Positions 6,908 through 23,044 of a stretch of 23,044 nucleotides of DNA are shown one piece after another. Where the stretch lies: IMG/VR virus record IMGVR_UViG_3300006738_000094, positions 1 through 23,044 of that record; one strand, given 5' to 3'. The notes under the pieces were generated by a model. It was not told the DNA's origin, made no database searches, and saw only the letters and a list, made by a program, of their open reading frames with translations. Position 1 is the first letter of the stretch, and each line of letters starts with the position of its first letter. The translations under genes were made by a program, and so were the position numbers. This DNA comes from a virus.

Positions 6908-8560
6908 TTAAACATAGTTTACATCAGCAACAATGACTTTACCATAGAATTCCGGACGCACGATTTTCTTCGCGTATCTGGTCATCACACCCTTACGAGG
7001 TGTGAAGTTCTTAGGATCATACACCAATGGTGTCATGATAAGAGGTACATACGGTGCATATACAGCACCAGTTTCGAGGAAATTACTTCCACGGAAACCA
7101 ACAAGAATCACATTCTCAAATTGATATGGGTTCTTGTAAACTGTATAGCGATTGTTCAACATACCGGCTTTCTGTACGCCCATTGCGTAAGACTTAGTTG
7201 TTGCGTCTCCATCTGCAGATGTTGCATATCCAGGAATAGATTCGAGGACTGTAGCTGTTTCAGGTGAAACAACCATCCAGTTAGCACCACCACGGAGTGT
7301 CTTCTGATGAATCGCATTACTTACACTTTGGATTTTGTTTCCAAGAGTCTGGAACCACTCACCTTTAGTGTATGCATTAGATGCACCTGAAGATTCTACA
7401 AAGTTTGTATTGGCTGAATTATATTCATAGCCAACTCTTGCAGACCAACGTTCTGTCTTAGCTGCTGCGTTCAATCGAAGCATATCAAGTATTTCAAGAT
7501 CAATTTCCATCGAAACATACTCACTCAATAGTGAAGTAAGTTCTGCTTCAGCGTCAACACTATGATAAGCGTTAAGGTCTTGAGCTAACTCAGGAGTCCA
7601 AACTGCTTTCAGTTTACGTGTTTTTGCTACTATTGGAATAGATCGCATTGAAATATCAATCTCAGGTATACCAACATCAGTTTCAGGGTTTGAAGTCAAA
7701 CCACTGGATGCTTCAAAGTCACCACGTGTTACATCAGTCGGCGCTTTATGATAGCGTACTGAAACTGTAGCGACTGGTGTCGCTGAGCCTTCATCAACAA
7801 TAAATCTCACATGAGATAAAGAAGTATCAGAAGGTGATACTTGAGTTCCACCTGCTTTTGAACCAGATATAGTTTTAGTATATGCTGGATAGTAAGCTGT
7901 AAAAGCTTCTGAACCTGTTGGTTCCCAAGCTCTTGCGCCTTCATAATCAGGGTTGCTAAAATTAGCTTTCGGTATATCATATCTTTTCAAGCTACTTGCT
8001 GCTATTGACGCGGACAATGAAGGTTCAAAGTCTACATCAGACCAATTAGCTGAGCTAGATATAATAGTTGCTACTGCACCTGTTACTGATTCGTTGATTG
8101 AATATCCAAATGCACCTGCTCCGTAGAGACCCGCTGTAGGATCACTATCAGAACCAGAAGTTACACCGAATACCTGCTCACCGGCGGTTACGCCAGGTTG
8201 AGCTGTACCGTATTTGAAATCAAGATAGAAAATCAGACCGGAAGGAAGATTCATCGGTTGAACAGAAACGAATTCCTGTGCTGCCAATTCACCAAAGATT
8301 TTACGAACCAATGGTAATGCGACGCCAGACCATTCTTCAGAATTAGATGATGTACCTGTAGAACTTGCTTCATCAATCAATTGACGAGCTTGGTTCTCAA
8401 GTAAACATGCCATTCCTTGAACTCTCTGTTCTTCGTCTATACCTTCCAACAATCCTGTCGGTTCCCATTTCTTGACCAAACCACGGGTTTCTTCCATGCG
8501 CTGACGATACGGATTGAATCCGTCCATCAACTTTTCAATTGTACCAAGATTTTTAGACAT
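6908..8560 (-). CDS. gp23: Major capsid protein, gp23-like
   Basis: 550 residues, close to T4 gp23 (521). The N-terminal region ends in QARQLIDEASSTGTSS: cleavage after Glu64 (I-D-E|A) would match maturation of T4 gp23 after Glu65 by gp21. Downstream features include VALPLVRKIFGELAAQEFVSVQPM (about 80-103), which is highly conserved in gp23 proteins, and a C-terminal region with GFRGSNFLETGAVYAPYVPLIMTPLVYDP-type HK97-fold sequence. It forms the hexamers of the head. ATG at 8560 has GGAG 7 bases upstream, the gene follows gp22 closely, and it ends before a strong terminator. The gene is visibly richer in G+C than its neighbours. Confidence 0.97.
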   Translation of the reverse strand: MSKNLGTIEKLMDGFNPYRQRMEETRGLVKKWEPTGLLEGIDEEQRVQGMACLLENQARQLIDEASSTGTSSNSEEWSGVALPLVRKIFGELAAQEFVSVQPMNLPSGLIFYLDFKYGTAQPGVTAGEQVFGVTSGSDSDPTAGLYGAGAFGYSINESVTGAVATIISSSANWSDVDFEPSLSASIAASSLKRYDIPKANFSNPDYEGARAWEPTGSEAFTAYYPAYTKTISGSKAGGTQVSPSDTSLSHVRFIVDEGSATPVATVSVRYHKAPTDVTRGDFEASSGLTSNPETDVGIPEIDISMRSIPIVAKTRKLKAVWTPELAQDLNAYHSVDAEAELTSLLSEYVSMEIDLEILDMLRLNAAAKTERWSARVGYEYNSANTNFVESSGASNAYTKGEWFQTLGNKIQSVSNAIHQKTLRGGANWMVVSPETATVLESIPGYATSADGDATTKSYAMGVQKAGMLNNRYTVYKNPYQFENVILVGFRGSNFLETGAVYAPYVPLIMTPLVYDPKNFTPRKGVMTRYAKKIVRPEFYGKVIVADVNYV

Positions 8561-8580: not shown

Positions 8581-9732
8581 TTAAAGAATACCCGCTAGCT
8601 TCTTAAAGCGGTCTCTCAATTCTGATCCTTCAGCAATTACTTCCTGTTTTTCAGATTTTGTAGAGGCTACTGCTTTAGATGCTGAGCCTTTAGTTTCTTT
8701 AATCTCTGTTTTATGTTTCTTCGTACCAAAAGATTCAGCCAATGTGGAATAAACCAATTTGACTTCACGAAGGTTATAAGCTCTATCAAAATTCTCCACA
8801 ACTTTCATTTTCTGTTCATTGGTTAGACCAAACGAACGGAAAAGTTTATTTGTGAAAAGTAGTTTTGCATTGAGCAAGTTAACTTCATTCAATTTAGTAC
8901 GTAAGTATTTAACGACATTGCGATGCTCGTCAAGTTCAGCCTGAAGACTTTCGACCTTATCTTTTTCTTCTTCATCAACTTCCTCTTCAGAAAGGGCTTT
9001 AATGACTTCTTCGAGATCAATTTCTTCTTCGACTTCTTCATCAGATTCGCTAACATCTTCGTCAGTTTTTTCAACTGATTCATGATGTTTAGCTTTATCT
9101 TTTGAACCTGTAGCTGAAGATTGGTCTGATTCGCCTTTATGATTATCGCCTTTACCGACTCCTGAAGATTTGTCAACTTCTTCGTCAACATCTTCTTCTT
9201 CATCTTCTTCGGCGTCTTCATCTTCTTGTTCAGACACTTCACTATCTACCGGTTCGTTGTCTTCTGAAACTTCATCATCTTCAAGTTCACGAAGTACTGC
9301 TTCAAGGTCAAGATCATCGGATTCTTCCATTTCCTCTTCCTCTTCTTCAGCTTCTTCATCATCTTGTTCAGACACGACTGGTGCATATTTAACACCATCA
9401 ATCTCAACTACACCTTCCATATCCATCTCTTCTTCATCTTCATCTTCCATTTCGTCGGCTTGTTCTTCGACATCCATTTCATCTTCAGATTCATCATCAG
9501 CTGGATCTTCTTCTTCGTAAGTCATTCCTTCTTCAGGAGCTTCCTCTTCCTCTTCATCATCTTCCATTTCGTCTTCTTGTTCATCAACTTCAATTTCAGA
9601 TTGAATTTTCTTAGAAAGCATAGACTGTAGGCGTGGTGTAAAAGCTTCTTCTAATGCTATTTTAGCATTTTCAAGAGCTGTTTCACGAACTGCTTTGGCA
9701 TCTGCAATGGCTTCTTTTAAAAGATCATCCAT
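8581..9732 (-). CDS. gp22: Prohead core scaffold, gp22-like, with very long acidic insert
   Basis: 383 residues against 269 for T4 gp22. Residues 1-45 form a helix (MDDLLKEAIADAKAVRETAL), about 46-260 are dominated by Asp/Glu/Ser runs, and the C-terminal 120 residues carry the conserved gp22-type helix with LNEVNLLNAKLLFTNKLFRS and NFDRAYNLREVKLVYSTLAE. The protein fills the prohead and is cut to peptides by gp21; L-K-E|A at residues 5-8 and I-A-E|G near the C-terminus fit gp21 cleavage. It lies directly upstream of gp23 as in T4. ATG at 9732 has GGAG 8 bases upstream. The acidic insert may adjust core volume or charge. The antisense strand of the acidic part gives long Ser-rich frames that are artefacts. 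Confidence 0.93.
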   Translation of the reverse strand: MDDLLKEAIADAKAVRETALENAKIALEEAFTPRLQSMLSKKIQSEIEVDEQEDEMEDDEEEEEAPEEGMTYEEEDPADDESEDEMDVEEQADEMEDEDEEEMDMEGVVEIDGVKYAPVVSEQDDEEAEEEEEEMEESDDLDLEAVLRELEDDEVSEDNEPVDSEVSEQEDEDAEEDEEEDVDEEVDKSSGVGKGDNHKGESDQSSATGSKDKAKHHESVEKTDEDVSESDEEVEEEIDLEEVIKALSEEEVDEEEKDKVESLQAELDEHRNVVKYLRTKLNEVNLLNAKLLFTNKLFRSFGLTNEQKMKVVENFDRAYNLREVKLVYSTLAESFGTKKHKTEIKETKGSASKAVASTKSEKQEVIAEGSELRDRFKKLAGIL

Positions 9733-9859: not shown

Positions 9860-9890
9860 AAAAAAACATTCAATAATCGAACGCTTTTTT
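9860..9890 (-). terminator. Probable terminator overlapping the bS21 stop
   Basis: The minus strand reads AAAAAAG-CGTTC, loop GATTATT, GAATG-TTTTTTT. The core stem uses G-U pairs that exist only in the minus-strand RNA, so it fits transcription from bS21. The stem overlaps the last codons of bS21 and ends in seven T just after the TGA. Confidence 0.55.
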
Positions 9891-10055
9891 ACTTCTAAGT
9901 CTCGCTTTTGCCCGTTTCTCGCGTCTTATTTCTGATGGTTTTCTATAAAACTCACGTTCTTTTAAAGTTAACATCAATTTAGTTTCTTTGACTTGTTTTT
10001 TTAAAACATTTAATGCTTTATCTATATTATTTTTATGAACCTTTATATATATCAA
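9870..10055 (-). CDS. rpsU: Ribosomal protein bS21
   Basis: 61 residues. It matches bS21, a small-subunit protein that in bacteria lies near the mRNA exit and aids initiation: MIYIKVHKNNIDKALNVLKK resembles the N-terminus of E. coli S21 ([20 protein letters not shown]), and REFYRKPSEIRREKRAKARL (positions 34-53) matches the signature REFYEKPTTERKRAKA. It has the usual basic C-terminus but is shorter than the E. coli protein (71). The start codon is TTG at 10055, chosen because AGAGG lies 6 bases upstream and because it gives the family N-terminus. It lies 9 bases after the core-like gene and ends in a probable terminator. bS21 genes are known in some pelagiphages and uncultured marine phages. 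It may bias host ribosomes toward phage mRNA. Confidence 0.88.
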   Translation of the reverse strand: MIYIKVHKNNIDKALNVLKKQVKETKLMLTLKEREFYRKPSEIRREKRAKARLRSKKAFDY

Positions 10056-10064
10056 TTAAAACCT

Positions 10065-10739
10065 CTAATCAGACTCAGTATCACCCTTCCAATTAGCATC
10101 TATATAATTATAAAACTCTTTTTTCTTGTCATCAGGTAACTTATCTGGTTCTGAAACTCCAAATTTCTTTAAGGCAGCCCTAAAAAACTTTTCATATTCA
10201 GCCTTATCACCTTCTACTTCTTTTACTTCAGCATTATCTTCATCATCAACTTCATCACCGTGTCTATAAGATTTTGTTTCACCTATTTCATAATATCTAC
10301 CAAGAATGTTACCCATATCTTCATATAATGCACCCATTCTTTCTTGAAGTGATTTAGCTTCAGATGCTATTTTACTAAAATTATTAGAAAGTCCAGTTAA
10401 TTCTTTCATATTACGATTAACTGTAATTTTATCAAACCAATCCTCTGTTTCTTGAAGAGTATGAGAATGAGCTTGTTTTGCAATCCAACTAAGTTTTTCT
10501 GCAATCTGATTAATATTAGATTTACCAAATATATTTTTACTTAAAGAATTAAAATTAGAAATTTCATTAGTTAATCCTTTTATATCAACTTTTTCTTCTT
10601 CTACGTCACCATACTTTTCTTTTACGATTTTAGATAAACTAATATCGTTATGAAATGGTGTTTTTGATACAACACCTCCCAACATAGTACCGGAAAAGTT
10701 TTCTTCTAATAAATCTTTTAGTTTTATTTTTTTAGACAT
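10065..10739 (-). CDS. Coiled-coil core-like protein with gp21-type leader site
   Basis: 224 residues, not assigned to a named family. The N-terminus MSKKIKLKDLLEENFSG carries L-E-E|N at residues 11-13, a gp21-type site. The middle (about 60-150) is helical. The C-terminus is acidic, then FFRAALKKFGVSEPDKLPDD and KKKEFYNYIDANWKGD, a charged ending I associate with prohead-core-type proteins of marine myoviruses. It lies between the decoration-like gene and bS21, upstream of gp22, so a role inside the prohead is likely. ATG at 10739 has GAGG 7 bases upstream, and a T4-late-type octamer lies 21 bases upstream. Scaffold, internal or core-shell roles cannot be separated from sequence. Confidence 0.75.
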   Translation of the reverse strand: MSKKIKLKDLLEENFSGTMLGGVVSKTPFHNDISLSKIVKEKYGDVEEEKVDIKGLTNEISNFNSLSKNIFGKSNINQIAEKLSWIAKQAHSHTLQETEDWFDKITVNRNMKELTGLSNNFSKIASEAKSLQERMGALYEDMGNILGRYYEIGETKSYRHGDEVDDEDNAEVKEVEGDKAEYEKFFRAALKKFGVSEPDKLPDDKKKEFYNYIDANWKGDTESD

Positions 10740-11337: not shown

Positions 11338-11769
11338 CTATCTTAATCTACTTCTTTTAGAGTATCTTCTAAATCCGTCTCTTACTTTAGTCCACAGCTG
11401 TTGTATAAATTCATCTTCACCATAATGAGTTCTTTTAGTTGGACCTGTTTGTATACCTCTTGCCAAGTCCATAGCATCATATTTTCCACCTTTTACTCCA
11501 TCCATCATAGTTTTAATAACTTGTTGAGATGCTTTACCTAAATAGTTTGACATTACTGTTATATCTTTATCTACTTGTATTTTTGCTTCTGGTGAACTAA
11601 ATTTCATTCCTGTAAATGACACTTCATCTACTTCAGTTTTAAATACTGATTTACTTGTAAAAAAATCATATGCATCAACATTATTAGCTATAACATCTGT
11701 TGCTTCTCTCGGTGGTTGAGCAAAAGTACTTTCAATCATTAATTTTTTATATATTGATTTTTTACTCAT
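11338..11769 (-). CDS. Putative capsid-internal protein, 143 residues
   Basis: No recognised family. The N-terminus is MSKKSIYKKLMIESTFAQPP; M-I-E|S at 11-13 is close to, but not exactly, the gp21 consensus. A second motif, TEVDEVSFTG (about 45-54), closely resembles AVNEVSFSS in the 587-residue protein of the same run, which suggests a shared module or processing signal. The C-terminus is strongly basic (RDGFRRYSKRSRLR), compatible with DNA contact inside the head. ATG at 11769 overlaps the previous TGA (ATGA), so it is translationally coupled and last in the run. Function unknown. Confidence 0.7.
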   Translation of the reverse strand: MSKKSIYKKLMIESTFAQPPREATDVIANNVDAYDFFTSKSVFKTEVDEVSFTGMKFSSPEAKIQVDKDITVMSNYLGKASQQVIKTMMDGVKGGKYDAMDLARGIQTGPTKRTHYGEDEFIQQLWTKVRDGFRRYSKRSRLR

Positions 11770-12005
11770 TTCATCTTCGTTAATACTTTTATTAAAGTAT
11801 CAACCATTTTAATAGTGGCTGGTGCACTTCTATACATTTTTTCTGCCCATTTAGCTGAATGTTTTGAATGTTTTCTAATTGCGGCTCCTAAAATACCAAG
11901 TCTATATTCTAATTCTTCCCCCAATTCATCTGGTTCCATATAAGGAGCTTCTTTAAGAAGTTCTTCTCTAATCATTTTTTTAAGTTGTGTTGTAGTTATT
12001 TTCAT
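11766..12005 (-). CDS. Putative capsid-internal protein with KITTTQLKKMIREEL leader, 79 residues
   Basis: The N-terminus MKITTTQLKKMIREELLKEAPYMEP is a short amphipathic leader of a type that recurs in small marine myovirus proteins; L-K-E|A at residues 17-19 is a good gp21-type site, leaving a mature piece of about 60 residues. The rest is a basic helical segment (AAIRKHSKHSAKWAEKMYRS). The leader shares the pattern (I/V)-I-R-x-E-L with the 149-residue protein between portal and protease. Start and stop overlap both neighbours (TAATG, ATGA). No function is assigned; a role as small internal or core protein is inferred from leader and position. Confidence 0.7.
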   Translation of the reverse strand: MKITTTQLKKMIREELLKEAPYMEPDELGEELEYRLGILGAAIRKHSKHSAKWAEKMYRSAPATIKMVDTLIKVLTKMK

Positions 12006-12391
12006 TAAAATGCCTTATGTATATCATCCATATTACTATATACTCTTTCTGCTCCCGCGAACAATTTTTTATCCAATTTATCTCGAACTTTTGTTAAATC
12101 ATGCATATCTCTAAGATAATCATGTAATGTCATTAAAGCTTTATAAGATGTAACTAATGGTGAATTCTTACCAAGAAAGTCACTGGCTAACATATGTCTA
12201 GCCGCATTATGATTATTAGTATTTGTCATTCGTGTAATATACCCAATAGTTTTAGAATCTAACTCTTTCTTTTCAGTTAACGTTCTACCAGTATGTTTCT
12301 CCATTGTATCTTTTAAAGTAGGCAGTGGTTCTCCAAACTTTCTATCAAATGCGAATTTACTTTCTTTTATAATTTCTTTTAACTTAATCAT
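12005..12391 (-). CDS. Putative capsid-internal protein sharing the FGEPLPTLK leader, 128 residues
   Basis: The first 35 residues (MIKLKEIIKES, then FDRKFGEPLPTLKDTMEKH) are shared with the 119-residue protein encoded downstream of gp21, while the remainder differs. I-K-E|S at 8-10 and L-T-E|K at 38-40 fit gp21 cleavage. The C-terminal 85 residues are helical (ITRMTNTNNHNAARHMLASD; LMTLHDYLRDMHDLTKVRDK) and have no recognised domain. The ATG overlaps the stop of the 587-residue gene (ATGA). The pattern of a common leader on different bodies is like T4 internal proteins, which share a capsid-targeting sequence; here it is an inference. Confidence 0.75.
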   Translation of the reverse strand: MIKLKEIIKESKFAFDRKFGEPLPTLKDTMEKHTGRTLTEKKELDSKTIGYITRMTNTNNHNAARHMLASDFLGKNSPLVTSYKALMTLHDYLRDMHDLTKVRDKLDKKLFAGAERVYSNMDDIHKAF

Positions 12392-14151
12392 TTCATCACC
12401 CTATAAGCTAGCTTAACCATTTTTGGTAGAGGCATTTTATCCATTTGTCTTTGTAAATTAGGATGCTCTTTATAAGCATCATATATTTTTACTATAAAGT
12501 TTGCTGTAGTTAAATCTAATCCCTTTTCGTGTTGTTTATTTTTAACAACTCTTTTTGCCACGTCAATAGCAGTTTCTTTTGCTTCATCTACGGATTCAGT
12601 TCTAACATACTTATCTTTACTAAAGTCTGCTTTAAATGGAACTCCCTTCATAGTACCAACAGTAACCTTTAATAAATCTATTACTTGTTTTTTTGACATA
12701 CCACTAACTATTTTAAGAGCTTTAACCATAAAATTTACATTACCTTCAAATCTTAATTTTTTTCTTTTATCAAATACTGCCCACCACAATCCACCACTCT
12801 TTTTAATTGTTCCTGTTTCTTTAGCTTCATTTACAACTTCATTAATATGTGGTTTTGGATATTTTACAAATCTTCTACCAAAACCAGAAATATATGGTTG
12901 GTCATTAACTGTAATTCTATATTCTGCCCAACCTTCTTGTTTCTTTAGTTGTTCTGCTTTTTTAAGGATAGCCATAGTCATTTTTTTAAATGTTTTTTTA
13001 CCTTGATTAGAACTCATAGTCAAAGAAGCCTTTTTATATTTTCTATCTTTAGAATGTTTAAGATATTCTATACCATAAATATTTGCGGGTTCTCCTCGAC
13101 CATACCCTTCCTTTTTACGAGCTGCATTAATTCTATCTTGTAAAGCGTTCATTCTATCTTTTGCTTTATTACCGACATCTTTCCAATGATCTGCTTTTTT
13201 AACATCATCTCCTGAATATTTTCTCATCATTTCATAGGCGTGTCTAATTTTAGTTGTTTCTTTATTCATTTGATTACGTATTTTAGAAATATCTACTTCA
13301 TTTACAGATTCCTTTTTAAACTTTCTCTCATAATCATCTGAATCATCCATACCTTTACTTAATTTTTTATCTTTATCTTCTGGTTCATCGTCTTTCTTTT
13401 CAGGATCATATTCAAAATCAGGTTTTTCAGAATGTTTATACCCATCTTTATCTTCTTTACCTTTTACAGCGAAAGTAGATTCAACTGTTTTCTTCTTAGC
13501 TAACTCTTTAGCAACCTTTACAACTTCTTTAAAACTTTTAGACCATCCCATTTCTTTCATATGAACTGCTAATTGACCAAGTACATGACCATAACCTATT
13601 CCTGTACCTTTATGTTTACTCGCCCAATGTTTAATTCTTCCTGCTAATTCAGCATCATCCATATCTTCGTGCAAAGCTTTTTCTATAGATTCTTTTATAT
13701 CTTTAGTACCTGTTAACTTATAACCTAATACTTCTGCGTTTTCTTGTCTCGCCTTTTCAAATTTTTGTCTAGCTTTACCTTTCAACTCACCACCAAATCC
13801 TTCTTTAACATCTGATTCTAATTTAGCTTTTCTTTTGATTAATTCTTTTGCAATCATTCTAAAAGTTAATGCAGCTGAACCAGATAATTTCTCATCTGCC
13901 ATTTGTTTATATTGTTTTACTAATTTTTTTGTTGGAACTGAAGAAAAACTAACTTCATTTACAGCTTCACTTTTAACTTTTTTAGGAAGGCCTTTATGTT
14001 TAGTAGAAGCAAAATCTTTAGCCGACTTCTTCTTCATAGATTTGGCAACTTTCTTAACTTTACCAGATACTTTTGAAGGTTTAACAGTACCTTTTTGTAG
14101 GCCGTGAACCATTCCCATAAATTTTTGTTGTGCTTTGGAGACAGCTGGCAT
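12388..14151 (-). CDS. Modular 587-residue putative core protein with DUF3008-like N-terminus and repeated cleavage-like motifs
   Basis: Residues 1-60 (MPAVSKAQQKFMGMVHGLQK ... KDFASTKHKGLPKKV) resemble the DUF3008 family, small basic proteins of unknown function. The rest is Lys-rich and modular. A motif E-[S/A]-V-[N/D]-E recurs at 62-66, 281-285 and 519-523, with I-N-E-V-V-N-E at 436-442; each is followed by V or A. These may be linkers cut by gp21, with A-L-H-E (159-162) and V-K-E (115-117) as further candidates. The pieces would be about 66, 219, 157, 81 and 64 residues. One piece (453-510) contains a compact WWAVFDKRKKLRFEG domain. The gene is the largest of the coupled run (TAATG with the 114-residue gene before it, ATGA with the 128-residue gene after it). 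A polyprotein-like internal protein is inferred. Confidence 0.78.
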   Translation of the reverse strand: MPAVSKAQQKFMGMVHGLQKGTVKPSKVSGKVKKVAKSMKKKSAKDFASTKHKGLPKKVKSEAVNEVSFSSVPTKKLVKQYKQMADEKLSGSAALTFRMIAKELIKRKAKLESDVKEGFGGELKGKARQKFEKARQENAEVLGYKLTGTKDIKESIEKALHEDMDDAELAGRIKHWASKHKGTGIGYGHVLGQLAVHMKEMGWSKSFKEVVKVAKELAKKKTVESTFAVKGKEDKDGYKHSEKPDFEYDPEKKDDEPEDKDKKLSKGMDDSDDYERKFKKESVNEVDISKIRNQMNKETTKIRHAYEMMRKYSGDDVKKADHWKDVGNKAKDRMNALQDRINAARKKEGYGRGEPANIYGIEYLKHSKDRKYKKASLTMSSNQGKKTFKKMTMAILKKAEQLKKQEGWAEYRITVNDQPYISGFGRRFVKYPKPHINEVVNEAKETGTIKKSGGLWWAVFDKRKKLRFEGNVNFMVKALKIVSGMSKKQVIDLLKVTVGTMKGVPFKADFSKDKYVRTESVDEAKETAIDVAKRVVKNKQHEKGLDLTTANFIVKIYDAYKEHPNLQRQMDKMPLPKMVKLAYRVMK

Positions 14152-14495
14152 TAGTTTGTCCTAGGACCATCTTTTTTACGCCACTTTTCATAAATCTTAT
14201 TATATGTTTTCCACATATCATCTAATTGTTTTGAGATACCTTCAACTTGTTTACCAATTTTCAACATACCTTTATTATATTCATCAGTCATTTTACGAAA
14301 ATTATTATAGTCATTCCAACCATATTGATCTGACTCTGTATATCCCCAGTCCCACATACCATTATTTTCTAATTGTTTAAATGCGTCATGTAAACTTTTT
14401 TGAACTGTAAGTGGGTCAGAACCACCTTGTACTTTTACAGCTTCATTGAGTCTCCACTCACGCCAACGATACATCATATTTTTATATTTCGACAT
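14151..14495 (-). CDS. Putative capsid-internal protein, 114 residues, with LNE|A leader
   Basis: No family recognised. The N-terminus MSKYKNMMYRWREWRLNEAVKVQGG ends in L-N-E|A at residues 16-18, a good gp21-type site, so a basic, aromatic leader of 18 residues could be removed. The mature part has a Trp/Tyr-rich patch (NNGMWDWGYTESDQYGWNDY, about 45-64) and a helical, amphipathic C-terminal half (IGKQVEGISKQLDDMWKTYN). The gene starts 1 base after the 90-residue gene's stop and its own stop overlaps the ATG of the 587-residue gene (TAATG). Function unknown; co-packaging inside the head is inferred. Confidence 0.68.
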   Translation of the reverse strand: MSKYKNMMYRWREWRLNEAVKVQGGSDPLTVQKSLHDAFKQLENNGMWDWGYTESDQYGWNDYNNFRKMTDEYNKGMLKIGKQVEGISKQLDDMWKTYNKIYEKWRKKDGPRTN

Positions 14496-14496
14496 T

Positions 14497-14769
14497 TTAT
14501 TCTCCTGAATGGGCGAGGTCTGTTTCTAAAAAAGCTTTTAAAACTCCACGTTTATACAATAGAGCAAGTGCTTTACCTGATTCTCCTTTTTTCACGTGAG
14601 TGTTAACATCACCTACAAATCTTTTAATATTCTGTTGAAGTTGTTTTCTTGTCATTACACCATAACCAGGTATTTGTACTTTTGCGTCTAAAGGAGTTTC
14701 AACTCCTTTTTGAGGTTTAGTAACTTTAGCCTCTTTCATATTTTTAAGTAATGACTTTAAACTTATCAT
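14497..14769 (-). CDS. Putative capsid-internal protein, 90 residues
   Basis: No family recognised. The leader MISLKSLLKNMKEAKVTKPQ is similar to MIKLKNLLKE of the previous gene; M-K-E|A at 11-13 may be the cleavage site, though P3 is Met instead of Leu/Ile. The body is basic with two short helices (TRKQLQQNIKRFVGDVNTHV; GKALALLYKRGVLKAFLETD). ATG at 14769 follows the preceding stop with no gap, and the next gene starts 1 base after its stop. Function unknown. Confidence 0.68.
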   Translation of the reverse strand: MISLKSLLKNMKEAKVTKPQKGVETPLDAKVQIPGYGVMTRKQLQQNIKRFVGDVNTHVKKGESGKALALLYKRGVLKAFLETDLAHSGE

Positions 14770-15129
14770 TTATTTTGCCTTCTTTATAAGAGACATAGCA
14801 TCTCTCATAAAAGCTGTTACGTGTTTCTTATATGAATCTTTTAGGGGTTTTTGTAATTTAAAATTAACTGTATCTGCTTGAAATCGTTGTTCTAAATCAT
14901 ACATTACCTTACGAAGTTTACCTTCAACAGTTCCTAACTTATGTCCCAGTTTTTTAACTTTAACTACATCTTTTACATCTTCTGTTACAGATTCACAACT
15001 ACAAGAGGTTGTTCCACCACAACCACAATCATTATGTTTTTCCATAATACCTTTTAATGTTGGTAATGGTTCACCAAACGCTCTATCCCATACAGCCCCT
15101 TCTTTCAATAAATTTTTTAATTTAATCAT
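14770..15129 (-). CDS. Putative capsid-internal protein with FGEPLPTLK leader and cysteine cluster, 119 residues
   Basis: First gene after gp21. The leader MIKLKNLLKEGAVWDRAFGE continues PLPTLKGIMEKH and is shared with the 128-residue protein of the same run. L-K-E|G at 8-10 is a gp21-type site; V-T-E|D at 48-50 is a weaker one. Between them is a cysteine cluster, Cys35-x-Cys37 and Cys43-x-Cys45 (CGCGGTTSCSC), which could bind zinc or another metal, or form disulphides. The C-terminal 60 residues are a basic helix pair. No enzyme family recognised. It starts 13 bases after the gp21 stop and is directly followed by the 90-residue gene. Confidence 0.72.
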   Translation of the reverse strand: MIKLKNLLKEGAVWDRAFGEPLPTLKGIMEKHNDCGCGGTTSCSCESVTEDVKDVVKVKKLGHKLGTVEGKLRKVMYDLEQRFQADTVNFKLQKPLKDSYKKHVTAFMRDAMSLIKKAK

Positions 15130-15142
15130 AAGTTTTCTCTCG

Positions 15143-15757
15143 TTAACCTCTCATTATATCATTAATAATAGATTCTGCTTTACAATATACTCCACACGTT
15201 CTACCACTAACAGGTTCAATTCCTTCATTCATGGGATGCATAAATGCTCCGTGTGTTGATGGATTAGAAACAAAGTCAAATGCTATCAATTCAAAATCAG
15301 GTTGTACTTGTGTAGTTTGTGCGCCATCTTCAGCTTCACCAATAGTTTCTACTGAACCCATACCTCGTGAACTAATACCAAGTTTAATTCCTGATTTAAA
15401 TAATTCTTTTAAAATATTACCTGCAGGTGTTCCTAAAACTTCTACTTTACCTAATAGATTATCACCTTCCCAATGCATATCTTTTATATTATGAGAAACA
15501 TTCTGTAAATTCACTACAGACGACTCTGGATGATCTAATTCACCCATAGCTCTACTTTCTGCTATAAACTCTTTTGCATATTTTGTAGCTTCTCGTTCTA
15601 AAATTTCTTTCGGATATATTCTACCATTTTGATTTTCTGCTTCTGCTCTTTGTAAAACTCCGCGTACAATCAATTTTCCATCATTTTTTTTCATGGATTC
15701 AGTAATTTGTTCCTGTCTTACCTCAAATGGTAAGTAATCTACTATAAGTTGTCTCAT
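15143..15757 (-). CDS. gp21: Prohead core protease, gp21-like
   Basis: 204 residues (T4 gp21: 212). Serine protease of the herpesvirus-assemblin-like fold (MEROPS S78/U9-type phage prohead proteases). Seen: NGRIYPKEILERE (44-56), AMGELDHPESSVV (70-82) with the likely catalytic His76, and KLGISSRGMGSV (125-136) with the likely catalytic serine at 129-130; DFVSNPSTHGAFM (161-173) is also a family feature. It cleaves scaffold, major capsid protein and internal proteins after [L/I]-x-E inside the prohead. I-T-E|S at 18-20 could be an autocleavage site. ATG at 15757 has AGGTG 6 bases upstream. It lies between the small core genes and the leader-bearing gene run. Confidence 0.95.
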   Translation of the reverse strand: MRQLIVDYLPFEVRQEQITESMKKNDGKLIVRGVLQRAEAENQNGRIYPKEILEREATKYAKEFIAESRAMGELDHPESSVVNLQNVSHNIKDMHWEGDNLLGKVEVLGTPAGNILKELFKSGIKLGISSRGMGSVETIGEAEDGAQTTQVQPDFELIAFDFVSNPSTHGAFMHPMNEGIEPVSGRTCGVYCKAESIINDIMRG

Positions 15758-15977: not shown

Positions 15978-16427
15978 TTAATAAAGTTGACCGACTTTAT
16001 TTGCTAACTTTACTAATCTCTCACTAATTTTTCTCATCGCTTTATGTGTATTCTTCCAATATGATCTCGAATCAACACCCATCTCATTCTTTAATCTTAC
16101 ATTCATCTTTGTCAATTTATCAATTTCTGCAAGATGGTCTCGAATCTCTCTCATAGAATACCCAATTTTTTGTTTTGCTGTTAGAGTTTCATCATTTCTG
16201 TAATCGTGGTATTTACCTTCATTTACTTTACTATATCCAGTAGAATTAGTTGCTATCTTATTTTCTTTTTCTTTATCTTTTTTCTTTTTTCCCTGGAATG
16301 CATAAGGTGTTTTAGGTGGACCTTCTCCACCATCAATTGCACCTGTTACAGAAGCTTCGTGTAATTTTAACTCCTGCCTGATAACTTCTCTAATAAATTT
16401 TCTTAAAAGTTCAACTTTTGTGGACAT
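15978..16427 (-). CDS. Putative prohead core protein (gene 68 position) with LHE|A leader
   Basis: 149 residues. I chose ATG at 16427 rather than the upstream in-frame ATG at 16451: AAGGAG lies 7 bases before 16427 (AAGGAGCTTGAAAATG), and the longer form would overlap the upstream gene more. The leader MSTKVELLRKFIREVIRQEL-KLHE ends in L-H-E|A at 22-24, a gp21-type site, followed by ASVTGAIDGGEGPPKTPYAF, a segment I associate with a conserved small marine myovirus protein. The C-terminal 80 residues are helical. T4 gp68 (141 residues) holds the same place and has a core role, so a core function is likely but not shown. Confidence 0.72.
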   Translation of the reverse strand: MSTKVELLRKFIREVIRQELKLHEASVTGAIDGGEGPPKTPYAFQGKKKKDKEKENKIATNSTGYSKVNEGKYHDYRNDETLTAKQKIGYSMREIRDHLAEIDKLTKMNVRLKNEMGVDSRSYWKNTHKAMRKISERLVKLANKVGQLY

Positions 16428-17280
16428 TTTCAAGCTCCTTGACAAGTTCATAATATCTCATTAAAGTTAAAACCTGTTTTTCATTAACAAGTTTACCTCT
16501 TGTTAAATTACTTATCTGATTAATCGCTTCGGTTAATTTTATTTTAGTAACTTGATCAGTTACTTTTGGTAAATTAACTTTTAATTCTGTTTCAAGCTTT
16601 TGTGCTTCTTCATCAACAAAGTCACGTAAAGAATTTGTATTACTAACATTATTAATATAATTTTTTAATAGATTTTTTTGTGCTTCATTTAATGTCTTGT
16701 ATTTTTGATTAAATTTATCTACAAGAATTTCGTACGCCAGTAACCTTAAATCTTTATCTGATTTATTATATTCTTTTAAAACTTTTTCTTTAGCTTCTTT
16801 AGAACTAACTTTCTTACTTGTAATATGTTCTAAAATAGTAAATTTAGAATCTATAACAGCTTCTGGATTAAAAATTATAGGAGTACTTTCAACTAAAAAT
16901 ATATTATATACTGAAGCTAATAGTCTATAGTTAGTAATACGGCCGTTAAAAAAATCACTTGCGTTATAATTTTCTTTTATTTCTTTGATTAAGTTATATT
17001 TTTCACGACGAAGTTTAGAATTACTTAATCTCTGTCTTGATTCTAAGACAGCATCAAGTAATTGACTTGCTCTATTCTCAGATTCGTAATGTTTTTCTAA
17101 AAGTAAACGGTATAATTGGAGTTCTTTTCCAAGTTCACTATTTTCATTAAAGTATTTTTTTACTATCTTTACTGATTTTGTACTTTTACCGGCCAATACG
17201 TCTGCCGTTATCTGTCTTGTTAATAATTCAAAAAGAATACCTGTATTCTTTATCTTTGAATGTTTTAGTTTTCGAGCCAT
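16411..17280 (-). CDS. Conserved helical protein between portal and protease
   Basis: 289 residues, mostly helical and Lys/Glu-rich, family not named. The N-terminus MARKLKHSKIKNTGILFELLTRQITADVLAG is well structured and looks conserved; coiled-coil-like helices follow (RASQLLDAVLESRQRLSNSK; ELVKELENVHKS at the end). It lies after the portal gene and before the small core-type gene, where T4 has gp67. A role in prohead core or portal-core assembly is an inference from position. Start ATG 17280 has GGAG 9 bases upstream, and motif site 5 lies 35-42 bases upstream, so it probably opens a new transcript. Its end overlaps the next gene by 17 bases. Confidence 0.7.
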   Translation of the reverse strand: MARKLKHSKIKNTGILFELLTRQITADVLAGKSTKSVKIVKKYFNENSELGKELQLYRLLLEKHYESENRASQLLDAVLESRQRLSNSKLRREKYNLIKEIKENYNASDFFNGRITNYRLLASVYNIFLVESTPIIFNPEAVIDSKFTILEHITSKKVSSKEAKEKVLKEYNKSDKDLRLLAYEILVDKFNQKYKTLNEAQKNLLKNYINNVSNTNSLRDFVDEEAQKLETELKVNLPKVTDQVTKIKLTEAINQISNLTRGKLVNEKQVLTLMRYYELVKELENVHKS

Positions 17281-21708: not shown

Positions 21709-23019
21709 CTAAAAATTTAATAAACCTACAATCTGATTTACAGGTGCAAAAGCTCCTGTAAACTTGTAAGTATTACCTTTATATTTAAACACTATACCTT
21801 CTGATGGTACAACTGATGATAATCCACCTATTTTTTCTAATTTACTTAACTGTTGTTTTAAAGTTTCTATCTTTTTAATATCACCACCACTTTTTACTGT
21901 TTTAATTGCATTAATTACATCTTTTCTTATTTTTTGCACTGCAGTCTTAGGTGATGCTGCTAAATAACCACTTATATTCTTTAATATCTCTGCACCCACA
22001 TCAAAAAACAATACTTCAAACGGTTTCATATTCTGTTTTACCCATTTTTGATGATCGTTTTTATCAAATGCAAGTGCCCAATTTAAAAATTCTTTATTCT
22101 TTATATCTTTTTTCATCATTTGTACTTTATACGATTTATCAAGGAAAGCCCATCTTTTAGTCAAATTAACTAAAACTCTATTTGATATTTTATACTTATG
22201 TTGTTTTGACGCATTAAAGATAAATTCTTCCCAAAATGACTGATGATATTTAGATAATGTATCATTGTCTTTTAATTTGTATTGATTTTGTAACTTCTTT
22301 AATTTATTTAAATAAACTTTTTTCTTTTTCCCAAAATCTTGTACTTTAGGTACTTCTAAAAAGTGTGGTTTACCTATCGCATAATGTTTTTGTACATGCT
22401 GATTAACCTGTTTAATCATTCCCGCTAACATACGAGCTGAATCTTTAGCTTGTCCTATCGCAGTACCACTTTCATTATATTCCAATGTCCCATGAAATAC
22501 TATTTGAGCTTTATCATAATCTATTACATTAGCAGATGCTGGATATATAACTTCAAGATTCATCCATCTTTTACCGTTACCAAAAACTTTTTCTTTTTGT
22601 TTATCTGACAATGAACTTATAGATTTATTTAAATCTTTCATTGCAAAAACAAAAGCATCTTTAATATCACCTCTACCTGCAAATTTAGAGGCGACACCTT
22701 TAATATCCATTGCTGTTGAACCGAAATTCTTTAACTGACCTTTGTTTCGTGCTGTAACTAACTTTCCTTTTACCCAAGAAACCATTAGATTCTGACCATC
22801 AAGTTTCTCAGTAACATTATCTTCACGACTAAGCTGACCACCGAGTCCTATAATAACTATGTTCTTTAAATCTGAAAATGTAAGATTTTTGTCATCAAAG
22901 GGATGATTCATATGTCCATATGCTCCGCCCATTAATAATAACTCCTTTCCGTTATACGGTTTATTTGTAACTAATAGATTTACATATTCTGTTAAATCTA
23001 ATTTTTCTTTCATTGACAT
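21709..23019 (-). CDS. Polynucleotide-ligase-like nucleotidyltransferase (start may lie beyond window)
   Basis: 436 residues from ATG 23019. Nucleotidyltransferase motifs appear in order: motif I EKLDGQN (71-77, likely adenylated Lys72), motif Ia ARNKG (90-94), motif III-like MNLEVIYP (153-160), motif IIIa-like IVFHGTLE (173-180), motif IV EGIVFKY (408-414) and motif V-like YKFTG (418-422). This is the order of ATP-dependent DNA/RNA ligases and capping enzymes. Between IIIa and IV is an unusually long, basic, helical stretch of more than 200 residues. Before motif I is YGHMNHPFDDKNLTFSDLK (34-52). No Shine-Dalgarno precedes ATG 23019, and the frame remains open upstream to the window edge (ENDAYDKK before Met1), so the true start may be outside. 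L-T-E at 9-11 could be a gp21-type site. Activity is not proven. Confidence 0.8.
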   Translation of the reverse strand: MSMKEKLDLTEYVNLLVTNKPYNGKELLLMGGAYGHMNHPFDDKNLTFSDLKNIVIIGLGGQLSREDNVTEKLDGQNLMVSWVKGKLVTARNKGQLKNFGSTAMDIKGVASKFAGRGDIKDAFVFAMKDLNKSISSLSDKQKEKVFGNGKRWMNLEVIYPASANVIDYDKAQIVFHGTLEYNESGTAIGQAKDSARMLAGMIKQVNQHVQKHYAIGKPHFLEVPKVQDFGKKKKVYLNKLKKLQNQYKLKDNDTLSKYHQSFWEEFIFNASKQHKYKISNRVLVNLTKRWAFLDKSYKVQMMKKDIKNKEFLNWALAFDKNDHQKWVKQNMKPFEVLFFDVGAEILKNISGYLAASPKTAVQKIRKDVINAIKTVKSGGDIKKIETLKQQLSKLEKIGGLSSVVPSEGIVFKYKGNTYKFTGAFAPVNQIVGLLNF

Positions 23020-23044
23020 CTTTTTATCATATGCGTCATTCTTC

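Follow-up and report, generated by a model that had tools for sequence, protein, structure and literature searches.

Next to the gene of a gp21-type prohead protease, an uncultured virus (IMG/VR record IMGVR_UViG_3300006738_000094) carries a run of seven coupled genes that is likely to be a gp21-linked, recombining, capsid-targeted head-cargo locus of a marine T4-like phage. We interpret this locus as a T4-like capsid-targeting system in an expanded, marine form. The capsid-targeting reading is based on the leader geometry, the preference for Glu at position 10, the constant leader on changing bodies, the apparent recombination of leaders with bodies and the conserved cleavage site of the major capsid protein. 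The window referred to below is the whole stretch of DNA that was analysed, i.e., positions 1 to 23,044 of the record (23,044 nucleotides, G+C content of 32%).

Genomic setting of the gene run

On the minus strand, the genes follow each other in the order terminase, portal (gp20), three genes for proteins of 289, 157 and 67 aa, gp21 protease, the seven coupled genes, two genes for proteins of 164 and 224 aa, ribosomal protein S21, a gp22-like scaffold candidate, gp23 and further genes (Table 1). Seven tightly coupled genes after gp21 had been claimed in a preliminary description of this DNA, and the coordinates agree with it: the run encodes proteins of 119, 90, 114, 587, 128, 79 and 143 aa, with successive gaps of 0, +1, −1 (TAATG), −4 (ATGA), −1 (TAATG) and −4 (ATGA) bases, 13 bases to gp21 and 77 bases to the next gene. 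All seven products are basic (pI 9.3–10.0) and their neighbours are acidic (gp21, pI 5.1; 164 aa, pI 4.2; 224 aa, pI 5.1).

The identity claimed for gp21 is backed by both profile searches (Table 1), and the PF03420 match (100.5 bits, cut-off 27) spans residues 27–176 and covers the catalytic domain; EQITE/S at the N-terminus of this protein is a possible autocleavage site. The closest cultured relative of the protease is that of Microcystis phage Mel-JY01 (61%), followed by that of Flavobacterium phage immuto (52%). In T4, gp23 loses 65 residues and gp24 loses 10 residues on maturation (PMC9958956), and IDE64/A in the major capsid protein of the window aligns with the T4 gp23 cleavage site LTE65/A, the cleavage Glu being invariant in eight sequences (alignment A6). 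The scaffold candidate (MDDLLKEA) and the 157- and 224-aa proteins, none of them encoded by the seven genes, also have leader-like N-termini. The 157-aa and 224-aa products are probably prohead core proteins, and Pfam and PHROG searches with the 383-aa scaffold candidate gave no Pfam match and no confident PHROG match.

Three side observations concern other genes of the window and of one relative. Ribosomal protein S21 (PF01165, E=3e-13) is encoded by the 61-aa gene (9870–10055, minus strand) that separates the scaffold candidate from the 224-aa gene, and in Mel-JY01 an annotated S21 likewise lies between the protease and capsid genes. A 444-aa protein at 21709–23043 (minus strand), cut by the end of the window, has a weak RNA_ligase match (E=0.009). 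In one related locus (L072:14181-15582), the major capsid gene is followed by two ORFs with Hint/intein-like starts (AGTLITMENGD...), the second of which weakly matches Intein_splicing (E=0.007).

Table 1. Features of the window and the evidence attached to them; a slash marks a candidate cleavage position.
Feature	Position	Strand	Remarks
gp23-like major capsid protein	6908..8560	-	PHROG_138 E=1e-71
gp22-like acidic scaffold candidate, 383 aa, MDDLLKEAIADA	8581..9732	-	between gp21 and gp23; acidic composition
224-aa conserved protein, downstream island edge	10065..10739	-	leader KIKLKDLLEE/N
143-aa cargo or core candidate	11338..11769	-	leader MSKKSIYKKLMIE/S
79-aa cargo candidate	11766..12005	-	19-residue leader ending LLKE/A
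128-aa cargo candidate	12005..12391	-	leader MIKLKEIIKE, FGEPLPTL cassette, site LTE40/KKEL, helical folded body 41-128
N-terminal region of 128-aa protein, residues 1-40, removal predicted	12272..12391	-	modelled with low confidence; Glu40 kept in all 11 aligned sequences
FAFDRKFGEPLPTLKDTMEKH cassette of 128-aa protein	12293..12355	-	between leader and body; missing from 8/11 aligned members
587-aa multidomain protein starting with DUF3008	12388..14151	-	PF11450 E=5.8e-7; S-SCSM1 homologue annotated as virion protein
ESVDE/A linker, 587-aa protein	12583..12597	-	possible inner cleavage site
ESVNE/V linker, 587-aa protein	13297..13311	-	possible inner cleavage site
EAVNE/V linker after DUF3008	13954..13968	-	possible inner cleavage site
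DUF3008 domain, residues 3-59 of 587-aa protein	13975..14145	-	PF11450, 30 bits vs cut-off 24
114-aa cargo candidate	14151..14495	-	Trp-rich basic leader YKNMMYRWREWRLNE/A, conserved except for the exact Glu
90-aa cargo candidate	14497..14769	-	leader MISLKSLLKNMKE/A; P3 Met, not L/I
119-aa cargo candidate	14770..15129	-	leader MIKLKNLLKE/G, FGEPLPTL cassette, Cys-rich CGCGG..CSC stretch, basic body
WDRAFGEPLPTLKGIMEKH cassette of 119-aa protein	15034..15090	-	common to 128-aa protein and several unrelated bodies
10-residue leader of 119-aa protein	15100..15129	-	hydrophobic 4, 7, 8; Glu10; geometry of T4 IPII/IPIII and gp24
gp21-type prohead core protease, 204 aa, Peptidase_S77	15143..15757	-	PF03420 E=1e-28; PHROG_207 (head maturation protease) 2e-54
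157-aa conserved protein upstream of gp21	15978..16451	-	N-terminus ends QELKLHE/ASVTG; relatives QELEE/ASVTG

Leaders and candidate cleavage sites in the window

T4-type propeptides have 10–19 residues and are cleaved after L/I-x-E, and in T4 IPIII residues 4 and 7 govern targeting and residues 8 and 10 processing (PMC9026906). The leaders first claimed for the small proteins are present as quoted, with [L/I]-x-E in the 119-, 128-, 114- and 79-aa proteins, while those of the 90-aa (MKE) and 143-aa (MIE) proteins fall outside this pattern. The position of the candidate site sets propeptide lengths of 10 (119 aa), 13 (90 and 143 aa), 18 (114 aa) and 19 (79 aa) residues, and the geometry of hydrophobic residues 4, 7 and 8 with Glu10 occurs within the window only in the 119- and 128-aa proteins. 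The six small bodies gave no significant Pfam or PHROG match and none to T4 IPI, IPII or IPIII.

Conservation across homologues, which had been named as a check on the sites, was found for the 128-aa protein, largely for the 119-aa protein and, with Met at P3, for the 90-aa protein, and failed for the 114-aa protein at the position first given. The [LI]-x-E site is mostly conserved in the 119-aa family, whose body also occurs with other N-termini in relatives, and MKE is conserved among the 90-aa homologues that retain the leader. Homologues of the 114-aa protein show LSD, LDK and LDA at the original site, and most of them have another [LIV]-x-E within ~10 residues downstream. The single homologue of the 79-aa gene has no Glu at the site, and MIE of the 143-aa protein (P3 Met) is replaced by INE, LNE or MTE in relatives. 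Because the sites of the 90-, 114- and 79-aa genes are thus not strict or not conserved, gp21 might act on only the 119-aa, 128-aa and perhaps 143-aa products, with the other three genes as mere operon partners; we regard this restriction as rather unlikely, since basic, conserved leader regions are found in both the 90- and the 114-aa families and most 114-aa homologues have [LIV]-x-E slightly further downstream.

The 128-aa protein gives the clearest boundary between a leader region and a body. In an alignment of 11 family members (alignment A3), the FGEPLPTL cassette separates leader and body in three, including that of the window, and is missing from the other eight, whereas the Glu immediately before the body (Glu40 in the window) is kept in all 11 with or without the cassette and is followed by KKEL in most; Glu10 is likewise invariant in this family. 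In the AlphaFold2 model, residues 1–40 are of poor confidence and the confident part begins at residue 41; a fold search with the body gave no match. The boundary is therefore predicted at Glu40 rather than at Glu10, so that the mature protein would begin with KKELDSK and not after IIKE.

In the 119-aa family, a Cys-rich stretch of the CxCGGxCC type directly follows the FGEPLPTL cassette in many homologues (in the window within 14770–15129) and is a possible metal site. A tblastn search with the leader and FGEPLP cassette against cultured phages gave no match. With the 143-aa body, cultured phages gave only weak matches within ribonucleotide reductase genes, which were judged to be due to chance.

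The 587-aa protein has no leader of the small-gene type and starts with DUF3008 instead. Linkers of the ESVNE/EAVNE type recur between the apparent domains of long island proteins with DUF3008 (the island being the interval between gp21 and the scaffold gene), with 44 copies compared to 6.8 in shuffles; they are left as a possible set of gp21 sites because the reversed motif scores 33 and V is not a T4 P3 residue.

Leader statistics in related viral contigs

Among the dereplicated island proteins from the relatives and the window, 46 of 83 have a basic N-terminus ending in [LI]-x-E; the figure is 13 of 62 for the remaining proteins encoded at these loci (Fisher p=3e-5) and 10.7 ± 3.1 when the island N-termini are shuffled. 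The background of this loose rule amounts to about 12–21% of genes, so that single sites prove little, and in Synechococcus phage S-SCSM1 it hardly separates virion proteins (8/47) from others (27/223); the loose rule was rejected as a stand-alone predictor on both grounds.

The T4 geometry (hydrophobic residues 4, 7 and 8 with Glu10) is more selective. In eight long contigs of the clade to which the window belongs, it occurs at the start of 20 of 329 genes compared to 13 of 4870 internal sequence windows (23x, p=2e-16), and the N-terminus is of the MIKL or MNKL type in all 20. Scanning of viral contigs with a DNA pattern for MIKLK-[NDEK]-hh-x-E gave at least 101 distinct matches; 94 of the 101 listed for MIKLK-x-hh-x-E lie at gene starts, compared to 32/66 for the version with Asp10 and 22/66 for that with Lys10, a contrast that is conservative because some of the Asp and Lys matches are real leaders in which the Glu comes later.

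These counts bear on two other explanations of the leaders. One holds that the leader is a generic amphipathic N-terminus, connected with membrane or other sorting or with the context of translation start, and that [L/I]-x-E is incidental. The occurrence of the loose motif in 12–21% of unrelated genes would fit this explanation, as would a 125-kb contig with three leader genes on which no S77 protease was found; we nevertheless consider it quite improbable in view of the preference for Glu10 over Asp10 and Lys10, the length and spacing that match T4 propeptides and the Glu40 kept at the body boundary of the 128-aa protein despite insertion of the cassette. The other explanation, a chance pattern read into basic N-termini from a short motif and from examples picked by the reader, is contradicted by the enrichment tests and the unbiased scan of the collection and is hardly credible. 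Co-occurrence with an S77 protease was weakly informative at best because the records are fragments: it was seen for 12/23 of a wider leader set and 11/23 of imperfect, contaminated controls, and for 10/11 compared to 2/6 in records above 100 kb, a grouping chosen afterwards.

Exchange of leaders and bodies

Behind the MIKLK leader, blastp clustering of the matches listed gave at least 78 body families without detectable mutual similarity. The description of the bodies of the seven genes as different from each other needs amending for the 119- and 128-aa proteins, which have a common second cassette, (W/F)DR-x-FGEPLPTLK-x-x-MEKH. A set of 74 leader proteins is constant only at M1, I2, K3, K5 and E10, and nearly so at L4; the search pattern itself fixes most of these positions, and the point of the set is therefore the lack of body similarity. 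Single leader-bearing members match models for NUDIX, RNase_T exonuclease, HD and cell wall hydrolase proteins, and further ones match models for an AAA/zeta-toxin-like kinase and a putative metallopeptidase. In one family of relatives (alignment A4), identity is 0.93 in the leader compared to 0.37 in the body; this family has no Pfam or PHROG match, and the top Foldseek matches of its model, which include proteins of the ADP-ribosyltransferase (ART) fold (PARP14/PARP10 and tRNA 2'-phosphotransferase), are non-significant (E about 0.5–1.6). A further group of genes with MIKLK leaders lies a long way upstream of the terminase in another record (L091:1890-8348) and contains this family together with a NUDIX protein that may have a zincin domain.

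Loci encoding relatives of the protease were retrieved, 80 in all, and the whole gp21-to-scaffold interval was available in 18 analysed records including the window, where it holds ~2 to ~10 genes in differing combinations. These genes represent roughly 28 credible body families, an approximate count because one cluster (F0) is chained and several singletons are spurious frames. Recurring leader types in the island are MIKLKxILxE, the WKDWRL type, MKILESYKKIAKSMLTE, MSKKSIYKxLMxE and MISLKSLxKxMKE, and DUF3008 starts the large proteins. The 143-aa body carries MIKLKDLLGE/S in place of MSKKSIYKKLMIE/S in one relative (L188), and proteins with MIKLKN leaders in another (L113) match the gp53–gp62 family of Agrobacterium phage Atu_ph07 (E 2e-22 and 4e-15), which stands under another leader there. 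As judged from these comparisons, leaders and bodies recombine.

The same comparisons are relevant to the possibility that the small proteins are structural prohead core parts, like T4 gp67, gp68 and gp22, that undergo the same targeting and trimming and have a role in head assembly or in condensing DNA rather than in taking over the host. The genes lie inside the head cluster, the 224-aa, 157-aa and scaffold neighbours are widespread with similar N-termini, many relatives have the 143- and 119-aa bodies at comparable positions, the 128-aa body has no fold match and all products are basic. Against a purely structural role, the number of island genes ranges from 2 to about 10 among the relatives, most families are confined to a few loci and the same leader stands on recognisable enzymes in other phages. 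We hold the structural alternative to be a real possibility, though not the expected one, and some of the cargo candidates may be core parts and not effectors.

Proposed mechanism and significance

In the capsid-targeting reading, the short basic amphipathic leader of each small protein would bind the prohead core during assembly, and the protease from the adjacent gene would cut after the Glu of [L/I/M]-x-E. The basic mature body would thereby be freed in the maturing head, remain with the packaged DNA and exit with it at infection; T4 IPI–III and Alt leave the head with the DNA in this way. The leader would be the constant part, with bodies swapped between phages and leaders swapped between bodies. 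The earlier proposal of co-packaged cargo thus keeps the T4-type targeting leader and the variable locus beside gp21 in its favour, while the individual sites on which it drew are only partly upheld.

The analogy with T4 makes it plausible that the bodies act as effectors against the host or its defences; this is the most speculative part of the proposal. T4 IPI, IPII and IPIII have all now been assigned as inhibitors of different GmrSD restriction enzymes (PMC12373910), and injected head proteins are therefore a proven source of counter-defence.

A literature search found no description of MIKLK leaders. We lean slightly towards the view that a large group of uncultured T4-like phages, marine and other, uses MIKLK-[NDEK]-hh-x-E as a general, portable tag for head loading, which marks a large class of virion-delivered proteins, most of them unnamed. 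If so, the head-loaded class would span at least 78 body families, including NUDIX proteins, zeta-like kinases, HD hydrolases, exonucleases and possible ADP-ribosyltransferases, and the reading of leaders in genomes would expose injected effectors that are invisible to sequence homology. As a marine counterpart of the T4 leader, a 10-residue tag would list candidate injected proteins of uncultured phages with no need for their bodies and would provide simple predicted N-termini for mass spectrometry. The leaders would also be a ready source of short natural tags with which proteins could be loaded into phage heads.

Comparison with known systems

The closest likeness is with the T4 internal proteins. 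The leaders MIKLKNLLKE/ and MIKLKEIIKE/ resemble that of T4 IPII/IPIII (MKTYQEFIAE/) in having 10 residues, hydrophobic positions 4, 7 and 8 and Glu10, and the locus resembles T4 IPI–III and Alt in its N-terminal propeptides of 10–19 residues, basic bodies, conserved leader on divergent bodies and gp21 in the same genome. It differs from them in the position of the genes between gp21 and gp22 (those of T4 are at separate loci), in many more body families and in the extra FGEPLPTL cassette; no body homology was found, and packaging and injection are predicted for the proteins here. The propeptide of the T4 vertex protein gp24 (MAKINELLRE/S) nearly matches MIKLKNLLKE as well, but it belongs to a shell protein and not to cargo.

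T-even internal proteins have only the leader in common (PMC3012670), and their ip loci were recognised by the signal sequence, according to the account of Repoila (1994) cited in PMC12373910. The leader of the window would likewise serve as a tag by which otherwise unrelated candidate internal proteins are recognised, although the T-even loci comprise about ten families in coliphages, compared to the at least 78 body families in environmental viral contigs found here.

Over its first 60 residues, the 587-aa protein is 63% identical to the DUF3008 (PF11450) protein of S-SCSM1, which consists of the 69-aa domain alone, whereas the protein in the window adds about 500 residues with ESVNE linkers. 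Both the DUF3008 protein and an NMNAT starting with MKSFLQFLKE/A are annotated as virion proteins in S-SCSM1, a genome with published virion mass spectrometry, which counts in favour of the capsid-targeting reading.

The jumbo phage Atu_ph07 encodes ten tandem paralogues (gp53–gp62) with a common 8-residue leader, M[KR]WxQL[TNI]E (gp53: MKWNDLNE), and divergent bodies; many products of the surrounding gene cluster were detected in virions by mass spectrometry, namely 29 from CDS 31–76, counted over the whole cluster (PMC6102473). This body family is also found behind MIKLK leaders (L113), but the Atu_ph07 proteins have another leader sequence, belong to another phage group and have no homology to the seven bodies of the window. 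The paralogues (L469:21484-31507), whose bodies are about 25% identical, contain a YRGM/YRGI motif and appear ART-like by eye with no Pfam match, and gp53 additionally carries a fused zeta-like P-loop kinase.

Leader-tagged internal proteins as such are thus already known from T-even phages (PMC3012670); what is new here is the breadth of the body families, the position next to gp21, the extra cassette and the swapping of leaders.
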